DNA of 60,573 bases, taken from the NCBI GenBank assembly GCA_027487315.1, contig JAIYDW010000046.1, forward strand, positions 1 to 60,573, read 5' to 3'. The stretch's first letter is position 1; every line of letters starts with the position of its first letter. The notes beneath the pieces are model-generated. The model was given only the letters and a program-made list of their open reading frames with translations, made no database searches and had not been told where the DNA came from. This DNA comes from Verrucomicrobiaceae bacterium (GTDB lineage Bacteria; Verrucomicrobiota; Verrucomicrobiia; Verrucomicrobiales; Verrucomicrobiaceae). Position numbers and translations under genes: made by a program. Shown here piece by piece: positions 4,022-10,449 of this stretch.

Positions 4022-7000
4022 CTACTCCAGCGGATGCTGCTTCAACAGCTCGTCCGTCATGAAGAACATCACCCGCCCCGCATTCGCGTCCCGCACGCTC
4101 TTCACCTGCTCAGGCGTAACAGCCGAGGCCTTGTTTCCAAAGCTGTTCCTCACAAACGTAAGGACTGCCGCCATCTCATCATCCTTGAGCATTCCGCCAA
4201 ACGGCGTCATCGGCACCTGACCATCGTATTTCTTGCCATTGATCTCCAATGGCCCCATCAGCCCGTACATCGCCAGCTTAATCAGCCGCTCCGGACTTCC
4301 CGCCACCCACGGACTCTTCTCCAGTGAAGGAAACGCAGGATCCAACCCCTTGCCATTGACCTGGTGACAAGTGGCGCAGTGACCTTCGCGGAAATACACC
4401 TTCTGCCCGGCCAAATACTGTGCCTTCTCTGCGGAACTCAAATGCCCCGGTGCCGGGATCTCCGCGAACTCCGGCTTCTCCACCTCAACCACACCATTCA
4501 AGCGGTCCATCGCCGTCTTCACCGCCCCCTGACTCCACACATCCAGCGGCTTGCTGCCCGCCACCTCCACAATCTTCTTCGCCGCCGCCACATTGGGCAA
4601 CCACGACGCCGCCACAGCCGCCTCCAGCCGCACGCGACCATGTTCATCGGCAGCGGCCTTTTCCAAAAGCGCTGCGTGATCAGCAATGACATGATGATTG
4701 TAACGCAACACACGAACGGCAGCAGCACGGGCGTGGAAATCAGGTGAGGCGAGCATCTCCCGTAGCAGACCATCATCGACCTGATTCATACCCCACGTGA
4801 CCCAGAGGGCTTCGAGCTTGGCATGGACATCGGTTTGCTTGGCGGCCCAGGCTTTGACCGCGGGAATCACTTCACTCGCAGGATGGCTGCGCAGTTCGCG
4901 ACGAGTCCGATAGCGGACACGGAGTTCAGGCTCCTTCAGGTTCTCGAGCAAAGCAGCAACTGGCGCGCCCTCGACCTGAACGGGCTTCACCAGCGGGCGT
5001 CCCGGATAGGTGATGCGGTAAATGCGACCATGCACATGGTCACGCAGCGGATCACGTGCGTTGTGCTGCATGTGGCCAATCAAGACGTTGTGCCAATCGA
5101 TGACATAGAGACTGCCATCGGGCGCGAACTCGAGATCAACGGGGCGGAAGTTGCCATCTTTGCTGACCAAAAGATCCTGGCGGAAGCTGGTCTTCCAGCC
5201 GGTGCTATCGTCTTCGATCTTGTGCTGCTTGATGCCCAGGAAACCGATCGCGTTGGCGAGGATGATATCACCCTGCACTTCATCGGGGAAGTGACGTGAG
5301 GAGACGATCTCCAGTCCGCTCGTCGGACGCACTTTGTGTGCCGAAGGAATGAGGTCCGGCGTGCTAGGCGTCTTGCTGCCAAAGGTGGGCTTCACAGACA
5401 CGGGCAATCCCCAGTTCATGCTGGTGCCGGAGGTGTGAAGGAAGAAATCCTGGCCCCACTGGTCAAAAACATAGCCCCAGGGATTTGGGATGCTCATCTG
5501 AATGGTGCGCTCGAGTTGGCCGCGCTGCGGGCTGTAGCGGAAAAAGCCACCATCGACACAACGAACCGGACCGTAAGGCGTCTCAACATTCGAATGCAGG
5601 AAAACGCCCTCACAAAGCATGAACGCACCACTCGGATCAGCGGTGTAGGCGCTGATGGCATGGTGCGTATCGTGCGTGTCAAAGCCACCGAGCACGATCT
5701 CCGTGCGATCCGCTTTGTCGTCGCCGTCGGTGTCGGTCAACAGCACCAGGTTCGGCTCCTGCGAAACATAGACGCCTTCCGGCGCAAACTCGAATCCGAT
5801 GGGCAAATGCAGTTTGTCGGCGAACACAGTTTCTTTATCGGCCTTGCCATCGCCGTTCGTGTCTTCGTAAATGAGCAGCATGTCGTTTGGCATCGGATCG
5901 CCGGGGCGATAGTGTGGATACTTCGGCATGGTGGCGACCCAGAGCCGACCTTTGTCATCAAAGGAAATCTGCATCGGCTTCGCGAGATTGGGGAACTCCT
6001 GCTCGCTGGCGAATAGCTCGACTTTGTAGCCCTCGGGGACGGTGAGCGACTTCACCGCATCCTCGCCGTAAAGATACTTCGTGCTGCCGTTCTTCACGCT
6101 CGGCTGGTAGTTCGTCGGCACCGGCGAAAGCTTCAGCGTCTTGCTATCATCGACGGCGAGGTCATTCTTCTTCGCGGTGGCAACATCGTGAATTAGAGCA
6201 TCACGCAACGCGGCCATCTCGCGGGTCTTCTGCACTTCTTCGGGGTAATTCTGCGGGCCGAAGGGATTGTAGCGCTGACCGTGCGTGTGGACACCGTTGA
6301 GGATGTTGTAGTCGTTGTTCCAGAACCAGTCCTTCTCCTTCACGGCTGCGTGCACGAGTTTCGGGTCCGCCTTCGACTCGCGACTTTGATGCCCATACAT
6401 GCCGGTGGCAAGCAGGTCGGCAATCTTCTCATAACCTTCTTCGTTCGGCACGAAACCGCCTGTCGTCAGCAACTGCTCAGTCTTGTCGTAAAGCGCCTTG
6501 GTGGGCGAGAAGAGGTCGATGAATGTCAATCCACGCTTCTTTGCCACAGTCTCCACAGCGGCGGAATAGAGGATAAGGTTGGCGTTCTCCTTGTCGCCAT
6601 TCGGCAGGTCGCGTTTGGCGCTCAGATTTTCATACGCGATCGGGCTGACAAGCACCAGACGCGGAGCCGTTTTGCCATTGTAAGCCTTGCTCAGCGTGTG
6701 CTGCACCCAGGCGTCCAGTTCGTCTTCAAAGTTCTTCACCTTGCTCGGTCCGTCGAAGGATTCATTGTAGCCAAAGAAGGCCACGATCGTGTCCGCCTTC
6801 AGATGCGTGAGCCACTGGTCAGGCGTGGAGTAGAAGCCCTTGCCATGATGCACCTGCTTGTCAGGATGAAATTTCTCCGCTCCGGGGAAGGCCCACTGAG
6901 AAACGCGTGCTGGATGGGGACGAAAGCCCGGGGTGTCGCCCACATGACCCATGTTGCGGAAGAAGAGTTCTTCATTCGGGTAGCGCAGGTGAAGCTCGGT

Positions 7001-8176
7001 TTCGATGCGGCTATACCAGGTGTCGCGCTCAGCCAGTCCGTTGCCGATGAGCACGATCCGCTCACCCTTGGCCGGAGGAGCCACGGCCTGAGCACGAGCC
7101 GCGGTCGCCGCAGGAGGTTCGGCATTCGGCGCGTGCGGCGGATGATCACTGGCAACAGCTTCCTTCTTCTTGTCACCAGGCAGGCCTGTGGAAGGGCTCT
7201 TGCCCGTTGCAAAGTCGCCGGGTTTCAAATTGATTTGCTTGTAATAGTCGCCCTTGATGGCGGCATACATCGTCGGATTGAAAGGATCGATGAAGTCCAC
7301 CTTCGCCTTCGCAGGCACCTCGATGCCGAGCAGGTGGAACGACGCATTCACAATCAAGCGGCGCAGGTCTTCATCCGCGAAGTCCACTGACGCACCCATC
7401 GTGGTGCAGAAGGACTTGCCTGTGCCCTTGCCATCTGGCGTTGCGTATTCAAACAACCACGCCAGCGCCTGCATCGGGTCGTTTTTCGGACCCTTCACCG
7501 GATACGAGCGATCATTCAGGCTCTCCGTCACCGCTCCCCGCAGCAGAATGGTCGCCTTGCTCAAATCCAAATTCTTCACCGTGTAAACGTCCGTTGTGCC
7601 AAAAATCTCCTCCACGCCGCGCAGCACCGGATGCTTCAAATTCGCCGTTTCATACACACTGCGTGTGCCTTCCTTCTTGTGCGCGCCATGATGCGCCACC
7701 CACTTCTCACCAAGAATCTTCAACCCAAAGTCCGCCCATTTGAACTCACCCGTCTTGGCACTGCCGGAGAAGGCATGCGTTGCCGTGCGCAGACCAATCA
7801 CTGGCTTACCCGCATTCAAGTAACGCGCAAACGGTGCCAACTGGCTCTCAGGCAACTGCCGGAACCGTGTGCCAATGATCATCAGATCAGCATTGTCGAG
7901 CACCTCCGTCCCTCGAATGTTCTTCTGGTTGTTCGGATCAATGTATCCCGCCTTTTCATCCGTCGAGAACAGCACGATGCAGTTGAACCCGTGCGTTTTG
8001 GCCAAAATCTTCGCCAGCATCGGCATCGTCTCCTCAGTGCGGTATTCTTCGTCTCCGGCGACGAGCACAACCGTCTTGCCTTGACCGGCTCCACCAGGGT
8101 TGGCCGCGATTTCAAGGTACTCTTGCGCCGAGGTAAAAGACGCCACGAGGGCGAGGGTGAGAATAAGGATCTTCAT
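4022..8176 (-). CDS. Multidomain ThuA - SGNH hydrolase - PVC heme-binding c-type cytochrome protein
   Basis: This is about 1384 residues. I take ATG 8176 because it gives a clean signal peptide (MKILILTLALVASFTSA); an upstream start at 8266 adds 30 unlikely residues. In order: a ThuA-like (trehalose-utilisation, glutamine-amidotransferase-like) domain at about 18-300, with LRTATHAF and VAHHGAH; an SGNH/GDSL-like domain at about 370-610, beginning IVLIGNGLAER and with GYNES; a PVC-type beta-propeller ('membrane-bound dehydrogenase') domain from about 705 with EF-hand-like D-T-N-G-D-G-K-A-D repeats; HEAT-like helices at about 1090-1230; and a cytochrome c domain with C-A-T-C-H near residue 1266. 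Similar proteins in Planctomycetes and Verrucomicrobia are presumed periplasmic redox enzymes of polysaccharide breakdown; the substrate is unknown. A promoter-like site shared with the sigma-factor gene lies upstream. Confidence 0.85.
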   Translation of the reverse strand: MKILILTLALVASFTSAQEYLEIAANPGGAGQGKTVVLVAGDEEYRTEETMPMLAKILAKTHGFNCIVLFSTDEKAGYIDPNNQKNIRGTEVLDNADLMIIGTRFRQLPESQLAPFARYLNAGKPVIGLRTATHAFSGSAKTGEFKWADFGLKILGEKWVAHHGAHKKEGTRSVYETANLKHPVLRGVEEIFGTTDVYTVKNLDLSKATILLRGAVTESLNDRSYPVKGPKNDPMQALAWLFEYATPDGKGTGKSFCTTMGASVDFADEDLRRLIVNASFHLLGIEVPAKAKVDFIDPFNPTMYAAIKGDYYKQINLKPGDFATGKSPSTGLPGDKKKEAVASDHPPHAPNAEPPAATAARAQAVAPPAKGERIVLIGNGLAERDTWYSRIETELHLRYPNEELFFRNMGHVGDTPGFRPHPARVSQWAFPGAEKFHPDKQVHHGKGFYSTPDQWLTHLKADTIVAFFGYNESFDGPSKVKNFEDELDAWVQHTLSKAYNGKTAPRLVLVSPIAYENLSAKRDLPNGDKENANLILYSAAVETVAKKRGLTFIDLFSPTKALYDKTEQLLTTGGFVPNEEGYEKIADLLATGMYGHQSRESKADPKLVHAAVKEKDWFWNNDYNILNGVHTHGQRYNPFGPQNYPEEVQKTREMAALRDALIHDVATAKKNDLAVDDSKTLKLSPVPTNYQPSVKNGSTKYLYGEDAVKSLTVPEGYKVELFASEQEFPNLAKPMQISFDDKGRLWVATMPKYPHYRPGDPMPNDMLLIYEDTNGDGKADKETVFADKLHLPIGFEFAPEGVYVSQEPNLVLLTDTDGDDKADRTEIVLGGFDTHDTHHAISAYTADPSGAFMLCEGVFLHSNVETPYGPVRCVDGGFFRYSPQRGQLERTIQMSIPNPWGYVFDQWGQDFFLHTSGTSMNWGLPVSVKPTFGSKTPSTPDLIPSAHKVRPTSGLEIVSSRHFPDEVQGDIILANAIGFLGIKQHKIEDDSTGWKTSFRQDLLVSKDGNFRPVDLEFAPDGSLYVIDWHNVLIGHMQHNARDPLRDHVHGRIYRITYPGRPLVKPVQVEGAPVAALLENLKEPELRVRYRTRRELRSHPASEVIPAVKAWAAKQTDVHAKLEALWVTWGMNQVDDGLLREMLASPDFHARAAAVRVLRYNHHVIADHAALLEKAAADEHGRVRLEAAVAASWLPNVAAAKKIVEVAGSKPLDVWSQGAVKTAMDRLNGVVEVEKPEFAEIPAPGHLSSAEKAQYLAGQKVYFREGHCATCHQVNGKGLDPAFPSLEKSPWVAGSPERLIKLAMYGLMGPLEINGKKYDGQVPMTPFGGMLKDDEMAAVLTFVRNSFGNKASAVTPEQVKSVRDANAGRVMFFMTDELLKQHPLE

Positions 8177-8198: not shown

Positions 8199-8228
8199 CT
8201 TATACCGCACGAGACAGCAAAACCGGAC
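8199..8228 (-). promoter_or_regulatory. Promoter-like element shared with the sigma-factor gene (copy 1)
   Basis: On the minus strand, GTCCGG (8228-8223), preceded by TGAAATTTTTTT and followed by TTTT, is 18 bases from TATAAG (8204-8199), which is 22 bases before the ATG of the giant heme protein gene. The same block stands before the ECF sigma gene at 10374-10404. Assignment to that sigma factor is inference. Confidence 0.5.
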
Positions 8229-8311
8229 AAAAAAATTTCAAACCAGATCAATTCTCTTTCCAACACCGGAACGGTCCCAAGCTGAGGTCACCCCAGCACA
8301 ACACATCAAAG

Positions 8312-9835
8312 CTATCTCGCCAGCCCTGCAATTTCGTCGTCACGAAGCACTCGGTCCCAAAGGGCAAACTCGTCCATGGCTCCGCTCAGATGCCGAATCG
8401 CTACCCCGCCCTTCTGTCGCGAATCATTCCAGTTCCCCAGTTCCGCAATCCCGATCCTCAGCGGTGTCGCATCCTTCATTGGTAGCCGGGCAATCAGTTC
8501 CCCCTCCGCGTAGTGGCGCACCTCCCTGGCAGTCGGATCAAACACCACTGCGATCTGAATCCACCGTCCAAACCGCTCCGGCGTGAAAAACACAGGGGCG
8601 TCATAATCCACATGTCGATCCCCGCCGCTACCCGCCACCCCCAAGCGAATCAACCCATCGCGGGTGATCTGCCAATGAATCTTGCGGTCCCCCCAACTCT
8701 CAGACATGAAAAGCGAGTTAAACATTCGGTCCAGTCCGTTGATTCGCACACACGCAGCCAACGTCAACGCCCTCGTTTCACCAGGAACGCTCAAGCGCAC
8801 CCGATCACTGACGTTCCGGAACTCCAGCGCCCCCTTCCCTGGCCACCGCCCCTGTGTCCATTCCGCTCCGACAATACTGCCGTCCCCCAGTTCACCTGCG
8901 GCCCCAGCGCGATTCACCAACGATCTCGAACCGAACCGATCTTGAAAATCAAATCTCAACTTCAACGACGCATCCTGCTTAAAGGCCCCGCTCCTCGCCT
9001 TCCACCGTTCCAACTCCATCCGCTGTGAGTCGACTGTCCTCGAATCAATGTCTCCCAACGACGCAAACCCCGACGGATTCGCCGCAAGCGACGTCGGCGC
9101 GCCGGCAAAAGAGACCGCCTGACCTTCCTTCAGCGAGCGCATCGCATCAGAAACGGGGTGCAATTCCACTTCCCCCTTGAAAACATGAACCACAGACGTC
9201 CCTGAACTCACATCCAATCCAAACTCCGTCCCAAGGTCCACAATCGTGCCCTTCGGCGTGTTGATCCGAAATCCTTTTGCCTGCGGTGGCACCTGCGCGC
9301 TCAGCTTTCCTCTCGTGCATGTCGCCTCTCCTGCCGACACCAACTCAAACTCCGCAGGCCCCTCAATAAGCACCCGCGCTCCATGGTAAAATTCAATCTG
9401 CGCCAAGCCAGACTTCATTTTCAAGACCCCAGGCACTAGCGGCGTGCCGGCTGTCATCGCGGGCGATTCCCATTCCAGATTCACCGCCCGCGTCAGCACT
9501 GCCACCGATGCCGTCGTCGCCTCACTTTCGCTCCGAGTTGACTCAATCAGACCCGATCCAATCCATCCCCCCACCAAGGCCACACATGCAGCAAGCGCAG
9601 CCACACCTGCAACCGTCGTCACCGTGAACCGACGTTTCGGCAGCAGCACCGGAGCCCGCATCCCCCCATTTGTCAGCCCTTTGCTCGCTCGCAGCATGGC
9701 ATCCATCTCAAGATGTCGTAAAAGCCGCTTTCCATCCTCAGGATTCGCTTCAATCAAGCCGTGCAAAGCCTCCGCTTCTTCAGCGGATAGCACCCCTTCC
9801 AAATACCTTTGAATCAGCGTATCCACTTCAGGCAT
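8312..9835 (-). CDS. FecR-type regulator with C-terminal LamG (concanavalin A-like) domain
   Basis: The protein has 507 residues. Start ATG 9835 is chosen because GGGGAGG lies 8 bases upstream; it overlaps the stop of the sigma-factor gene (ATGCCTGA), so the two are translationally coupled. The N-terminal 60 residues (ZAS-like, YLEGVLSAEEAEALHGLIEA) are cytoplasmic, a membrane span follows at about 72-95 (VAGVAALAACVALVGGWIGS), then a periplasmic FecR domain at about 110-250 (KGTIVDLGTEFGLDVSSG) and a LamG-like domain at about 315-505. This is the usual cell-surface-signalling partner of PVC sigma factors: it is expected to hold or activate the sigma factor in response to an outside ligand, perhaps a carbohydrate seen by the LamG domain. 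Confidence 0.85.
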   Translation of the reverse strand: MPEVDTLIQRYLEGVLSAEEAEALHGLIEANPEDGKRLLRHLEMDAMLRASKGLTNGGMRAPVLLPKRRFTVTTVAGVAALAACVALVGGWIGSGLIESTRSESEATTASVAVLTRAVNLEWESPAMTAGTPLVPGVLKMKSGLAQIEFYHGARVLIEGPAEFELVSAGEATCTRGKLSAQVPPQAKGFRINTPKGTIVDLGTEFGLDVSSGTSVVHVFKGEVELHPVSDAMRSLKEGQAVSFAGAPTSLAANPSGFASLGDIDSRTVDSQRMELERWKARSGAFKQDASLKLRFDFQDRFGSRSLVNRAGAAGELGDGSIVGAEWTQGRWPGKGALEFRNVSDRVRLSVPGETRALTLAACVRINGLDRMFNSLFMSESWGDRKIHWQITRDGLIRLGVAGSGGDRHVDYDAPVFFTPERFGRWIQIAVVFDPTAREVRHYAEGELIARLPMKDATPLRIGIAELGNWNDSRQKGGVAIRHLSGAMDEFALWDRVLRDDEIAGLAR

Positions 9836-10361
9836 GCGCCGCACCTCCCCGTTCCATCGAGCGCTCGATGCACTCTCTCAATTTTTCCCGAACCCGTGAC
9901 AACGCCCTGCAAACCGTGTCCGTCCTCATGTTGATCTGCTCCGCAATCTCAGGTGTCCCCACCTCATTGTAATAGTAAAGCTCCACCAATTCCCGACTCT
10001 TCTCCGGCAGCTTCTGCAAACAACTCCGCAACACCGCGATCTCCTCTTCATATCGCGGAGGCGCCTCCTGACTCTCAGCCAATTGACGAATGTGCTCGGC
10101 CAGCTTTTGCACCACTTCGGGTTGCTGCCGCGTCCGCTCCCTCCACAATCGCATCGCCACATGCCGGGTCATCGTCGCCAAAAGTGGCCTCAAATCCCGG
10201 CTCATATCCCACCGATCCTCCTTCGCCAAAAACTCAAGAAACACCTGCTGGCAAACATCCTCCACCAAACCCGGCCAAGGCGCATACTTCAGCGCCACAC
10301 CTTTGACAAAGTCATGGTGCGTCAAAAAAGCCTGTGCCGCGTGCGTCTCGTCTGTGTTCAT
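9828..10361 (-). CDS. ECF-type sigma-70 family RNA polymerase sigma factor
   Basis: Its 177 residues match the length of ECF sigma factors of the Rhodopirellula/Verrucomicrobium type. Region 2 spans about residues 10-80 (FVKGVALKYAPWPGLVEDVC then QQVFLEFL), and region 4 about 115-165 (LQKLPEKSRELVELYYYNEV and EIAEQINMRTDTVCRALSRV). The start ATG 10361 has TAGGAG three bases upstream. It is followed by, and overlaps, the FecR-LamG gene, which is probably its regulator. The promoter-like element at 10374-10404 suggests autoregulation. Confidence 0.9.
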   Translation of the reverse strand: MNTDETHAAQAFLTHHDFVKGVALKYAPWPGLVEDVCQQVFLEFLAKEDRWDMSRDLRPLLATMTRHVAMRLWRERTRQQPEVVQKLAEHIRQLAESQEAPPRYEEEIAVLRSCLQKLPEKSRELVELYYYNEVGTPEIAEQINMRTDTVCRALSRVREKLRECIERSMERGGAAHA

Positions 10362-10373
10362 CAGCTCCTACCC

Positions 10374-10404
10374 ATTCTACCCCGTCAAACAAAAAAAACC
10401 GGAC
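10374..10404 (-). promoter_or_regulatory. Promoter-like element shared with the giant heme-protein gene (copy 2)
   Basis: On the minus strand, TGAAATTTTTGTCCGG then a T run, with GTCCGG at 10404-10399, precedes TAGAAT (10379-10374) by 19 bases; the ATG of the sigma gene is 12 bases further. It is nearly identical over about 20 bases to the site at 8199-8228, apart from a 2-base length difference in the T run. Confidence 0.5.
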
Positions 10405-10449
10405 AAAAATTTCATGCTTTTCCCTCATCGTCCGTCGATAACTCATCCC

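Follow-up and report, generated by a model that had tools for sequence, protein, structure and literature searches.

The window analysed here, a 60,573-nucleotide stretch from the genome of a Verrucomicrobiaceae bacterium (contig JAIYDW010000046.1), carries genes for an ECF sigma factor, a FecR-LamG putative anti-sigma factor and a secreted multidomain protein, the target gene, together with two promoter blocks (Table 1). The sigma factor scored 36.5 bits against PF04542 (cut-off 24) and 42.5 bits against PF08281 (cut-off 25.7), and regions 2 and 4 are its only promoter-binding parts, as in ECF sigma factors. The nearest named NCBIfam subfamily was TIGR02989 (Sig-70_gvs1), a Rhodopirellula/Verrucomicrobium sigma subfamily; because the best score, 89.9 bits, falls below the curated cut-off of 124.55, the sigma factor is a relative and not a member of that group. 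Its FecR-LamG partner consists of a short N-terminal part, a hydrophobic segment, a FecR domain (PF04773, 35.6 bits; cut-off 24) and a LamG (concanavalin-like) domain (PF13385 at residues 356-506, above the curated cut-off). One membrane helix is predicted at about residues 73-98, within the segment that is also hydrophobic in orthologs; mean column identity among orthologs was 60% over the whole alignment, and the LamG half is strongly conserved. The target protein scored 209.1 bits against TIGR02604 (PVC-type heme-binding CxxCH; cut-off 122.2) and has a C-terminal cytochrome c domain (PF00034, 36.4 bits) with the heme-binding motif CATCH in its translation, so that both its score and its CxxCH cytochrome domain place it in TIGR02604. 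DUF7133/PVC-type heme proteins are present in many copies, the genome containing 28 matches to this protein. We know of no established function for DUF7133/PVC-type heme proteins.

Table 1. Genes and promoter elements of the sigma/FecR-LamG locus; positions are those of the window.
Feature	Coordinates	Strand	Evidence
Target gene: secreted 1384-aa protein with ThuA, SGNH/GDSL, DUF7133, HEAT and cytochrome c domains	4022..8176	-	profile searches
Heme-gene promoter, -10 element GCGGTATA	8201..8208	-	same octamer in 26/29 ortholog sites
Heme-gene promoter, A/T tract and -35 element (GTCCGG 8223-8228)	8223..8240	-	genome scan; orthologous leaders
FecR-LamG putative anti-sigma gene, overlapping the end of the sigma gene	8312..9844	-	Pfam profiles; ortholog alignment
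ECF sigma factor gene, 177 aa, regions 2 and 4	9828..10361	-	Pfam profiles
Sigma promoter, -10 element GGGGTAGA	10376..10383	-	orthologous leader comparison
Sigma promoter, A/T tract and -35 element (GTCCGG 10399-10404)	10399..10414	-	genome scan; orthologous leaders

The minus-strand leaders of the sigma gene (TGAAATTTTTGTCCGGTTTTTTTTGTTTGACGGGGTAGAATGGGTAGGAGCTGATG) and of the heme gene (TGAAATTTTTTTGTCCGGTTTTGCTGTCTCGTGCGGTATAAG...ATG) had been read from the letters alone as sharing the word TGAAATTTTT(TT)GTCCGG, followed by TAGAAT 19 bases and TATAAG 18 bases beyond GTCCGG, respectively; the word and both spacings were confirmed. A scan of the 5.87-Mb genome (assembly completeness 98.67%) with the pattern TGAAATTTTTN{0,3}GTCCGG returned two matches, against none for the reversed pattern used as control. 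Thus TGAAATTTTT(TT)GTCCGG occurs exactly twice, once 5' of the ECF sigma gene and once 5' of the ThuA-SGNH-heme gene.

The sequence-only reading had named absence of the block from orthologous leaders as a refuting observation. Comparison of 34 sigma leaders (the window plus 33 loci) found the block in every one: GTCCGG, extended to GTCCGGT, was invariant in 34/34, with T as the preceding base in 88% and C in leaders of the Brevifollis type; an A/T tract lies 5' of it, and at a near-fixed distance 3' comes a further block that is usually GYGAGATA. The flanks are close to random, with about 0.1 bit per column further upstream. From this comparative work the shared block is identified as the predicted -35 half of a bipartite promoter, and the TGAAATTTTT stretch as a generic A/T tract that holds no conserved word. 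The conserved promoter comprises an A/T tract, the -35 element TGTCCGGTTT, a spacer of 16-17 bp (hexamer to hexamer) and the -10 element G(Y)GRKATA, which begins 14-15 bases 3' of GTCCGG. The sigma promoter in the window departs from this consensus in its -10 element, GGGGTAGA, which TAGAAT (10374-10379) overlaps, and in a spacer longer by one base. The motif is placed like -35 and -10 elements, about 40 nt 5' of the sigma start codon. In most relatives only about 11 bases separate the -10 block from the sigma ATG, which may leave the sigma mRNA with almost no leader there. Sigma genes of 24-31% identity located beside other FecR genes (L156-L161) have different leaders. These other sigma/FecR-LamG pairs carry common leader words of their own, TTTCGGTAAA...GTACAACACTA and GTCCAAAACTCG...GAAGTA, which suggests that each sigma lineage may have its own autoregulatory promoter.

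A search of 115 genomes, that of the window included, detected FecR-LamG orthologs (E < 1e-140) in 48. Sites matching the strict pattern TGTCCGGTTN{12,13}GNGRKNT numbered 138 in these 48 genomes (control, 13) and 15 in the 67 genomes without the ortholog (control, 16), counts that come from related genomes and do not represent independent events. At least one strict site was present in 47/48 ortholog-bearing genomes and in 10/67 of the others. Since the controls gave 13 and 16, the 15 sites in genomes without the ortholog are at background level. Among 103 distinct sites of the sigma-bearing set, which includes four from the incomplete genomes G058 and G067 where the ortholog went undetected, 89 lie directly 5' of sigma, DUF7133/ThuA/SGNH genes or L-ribulokinase; none of nine sites from sigma-less genomes does. 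Of the 89, 29 precede orthologs of the ThuA-SGNH-DUF7133-cytochrome gene, 14 other ThuA-DUF7133 genes, 24 SGNH-DUF7133 genes that carry a cytochrome or an azurin domain, 5 ThuA genes truncated at a contig end (one duplicate having been removed), 16 L-ribulokinase (L101, L109 and 14 further loci) and one a sigma gene; most sigma sites were previously known and omitted from this classification.

Leaders of the heme-gene orthologs carry the motif even when the gene lies 4-7 kb away or on another contig. The -10 octamer varies characteristically by target class: GCGGTATA precedes 26/29 cytochrome orthologs, GCGGGATG 9/16 ribulokinases and GCGAGATA 10/14 ThuA-azurin genes. In domain scans, an azurin/plastocyanin-like C-terminal domain replaces the cytochrome in many targets. 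Such C-termini occur in DUF7133 proteins named for heme (L103:2367-5564, L103:5689-10176, L106:537-3674 and L356:836-4024), and the DUF7133 proteins of L103 and L106 lack CxxCH. Because of these azurin-like ends, some without CxxCH, heme and copper carriers seem interchangeable in DUF7133 proteins. A single sulfatase gene (L307:98-1708, G060) has a perfect-looking site 5' of its start.

No third copy of the block had been noticed in the sequence-only reading, which holds for the window and fails for the genome. A one-mismatch scan with the right spacing located a third, slightly different promoter outside the window (TGTCCGGTTTTCACGAGACGATTGGGATAAG, G000:C235:6535-6562), 63 bases 5' of the start codon (ATG) of a gene encoding an SGNH-DUF7133-HEAT-azurin protein of about 1055 aa. 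This site is conserved in all three sigma-bearing members of the genus (the window's genome, G001 and G003; L203, L334 and L356). In G002, a member without the sigma ortholog, a 56% homolog of the azurin gene was found, with no motif in the DNA examined. One site that fits the strict pattern exactly, G000:C21:14846-14873, was judged a chance occurrence because a continuous coding frame runs through it. Within the window's genome, allowing mismatches to TTTTTGTCCGGTTTT yielded 20 matches (control, 19), and allowing one mismatch at an inner spacing of 13 bases yielded 10 (control, 8), both at background; exactness and context therefore count, since looser versions of the motif drown in background. 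The genome's own ribulokinase has a leader without the motif, unlike that of Prosthecobacter-type genomes. An arabinose operon was sought beside the ribulokinase in G036 and was not recognised.

In named records, FecR-LamG orthologs occur in Verrucomicrobiaceae, Prosthecobacter, Brevifollis gellanilyticus and two metagenome-assembled genomes (MAGs) labelled Planctomycetota; close relatives of the sigma factor (E up to 1e-40) are confined to Verrucomicrobiaceae in a 388-genome sample of the phylum. The two Planctomycetota-labelled MAGs (L152, L153) bear both a sigma ortholog of 62-66% identity and the motif, pointing to either transfer between phyla or misbinning. Three MAGs titled Akkermansia muciniphila (L133, L141, L151) also bear the Verrucomicrobiaceae sigma/FecR-LamG system, and their titles are probably wrong. 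Verrucomicrobium sp. BvORR106 and BvORR034 (L154, L155) have a FecR-LamG relative of 51% identity; neither an adjacent sigma ortholog was recognised nor a motif found in the DNA examined.

All of this evidence is comparative and drawn from the sequences of related genomes, of which many are metagenome assemblies. On that basis the ECF sigma factor whose gene lies between the two blocks very probably reads both as promoters, driving the sigma-fecR genes and a small regulon of secreted DUF7133 proteins. The comparisons support the motif, its linkage to the sigma/FecR lineage, the identity of the target genes, and the presence of one predicted sigma-type promoter, co-inherited with the sigma/FecR pair, 5' of sigma and of a small number of secreted DUF7133 genes. 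The proposal of a small autoregulated regulon with the heme protein as target is likewise well supported by these alignments, except that the predicted regulon extends beyond the two promoters originally proposed: it has three in the window's genome and about three to six in Prosthecobacter-type genomes, and it takes in blue-copper versions of DUF7133 proteins and, in relatives, L-ribulokinase. The Verrucomicrobiaceae system thus appears to be a switch that turns on its own gene and a few giant secreted heme or copper proteins. We infer that this sigma factor, and not another, reads the promoter, with FecR-LamG acting as its membrane-anchored anti-sigma factor, and the domain layout makes it plausible that FecR-LamG senses a ligand. 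In the proposed mechanism, FecR-LamG would hold the sigma factor at the membrane until its periplasmic LamG domain binds a ligand, a glycan or similar, whereupon sigma would be released. It would then drive its own sigma-fecR operon (positive autoregulation), the adjacent ThuA-SGNH-cytochrome c gene and the distant SGNH-DUF7133-azurin gene, with autoregulation amplifying the response. A glycan is the simplest candidate ligand given the LamG domain and the ribulokinase in the regulon of relatives.

The sensing step is the only part of this explanation contested by the best-surviving alternative, in which the motif is the sigma promoter and the LamG domain is structural or binds a partner, the signal arriving through another protein. 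In the classical case an outer-membrane transducer, FecA, controls FecR, and LamG domains bind proteins too, so the idea has precedent; against it, conservation of the LamG half across orthologs is strong, and no TonB-dependent outer-membrane transducer gene was recognised when neighbouring ORFs were inspected by eye, which was not exhaustive. We regard this alternative as a serious possibility, though less likely than not. It is far less probable that some separate DNA-binding regulator uses the block as its operator and controls both genes, the sigma gene being merely one of its targets. A conserved word 5' of several genes would look alike in that case, and CCGG is a short palindrome; the element, however, is asymmetric and bipartite, has a fixed spacing of 16-17 bp and -35/-10-like placement, and tracks the presence of the sigma/FecR pair across genomes, and an unsystematic look revealed no other conserved regulator gene beside it. 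Ordinary housekeeping promoters, their common upstream words being a duplication remnant or chance, can hardly be credited: TAGAAT and TATAAG do resemble TATAAT, but the full word occurs only twice genome-wide, the motif is kept in relatives despite divergent flanks, and the same bipartite word precedes many different target genes.

DUF7133 proteins may, as a guess from their domains, pass substrate electrons to heme or copper. It is possible, if not the likelier case, that a lectin-gated, Verrucomicrobiaceae-specific ECF sigma factor controls periplasmic carbohydrate oxidation by giant secreted DUF7133 enzymes, whose cytochrome c and blue-copper domains would serve interchangeably as electron outlets, together with pentose phosphorylation by L-ribulokinase in Prosthecobacter-type genomes. 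The small conserved regulon gives DUF7133 proteins a testable regulator, a promoter signature for which genomes can be scanned and a set of co-regulated partners. The target gene fits TIGR02604/DUF7133; in several members of the regulon the DUF7133 core is retained but followed at the C-terminus by an azurin/plastocyanin-like domain.

Positive autoregulation is usual, not universal, for ECF sigma factors. Systems of this kind are already known, and what looks new is the promoter, the regulon and the layout of the sensor: literature searches, with the main ECF classification and planctomycete ECF papers outside their coverage, returned no description of the motif, of an ECF/FecR/LamG regulon or of Prosthecobacter sigma factors. 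The original description of ECF factors had them autoregulated, save a few such as the FecI-like factors (PMC8103513). The SigI/RsgI systems of Clostridium thermocellum have an autoregulated sigma operon with a membrane anti-sigma factor bearing an extracytoplasmic sensory module, and each sigma factor recognises a stringent promoter of its own and controls a small set of secreted proteins (PMC6056542). The Verrucomicrobiaceae system would resemble them in logic, with a sigma and anti-sigma operon, apparent autoregulation and a small secreted-protein regulon. It differs in sigma family, in a FecR partner with a LamG domain and in its targets, which are DUF7133 heme/copper proteins in place of cellulosomal and other saccharolytic enzymes. 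With FecI/FecR it shares an ECF sigma factor whose FecR-domain partner is encoded directly downstream. The fecIR genes, however, are not autoregulated (PMC9249621), whereas the Verrucomicrobiaceae sigma leader bears the regulon motif, no transducer gene was recognised by eye among neighbouring ORFs, and FecR is fused to LamG; the locus pairs a FecR-type partner carrying a lectin-type domain with a sigma operon that, unlike fecIR, is apparently autoregulated.
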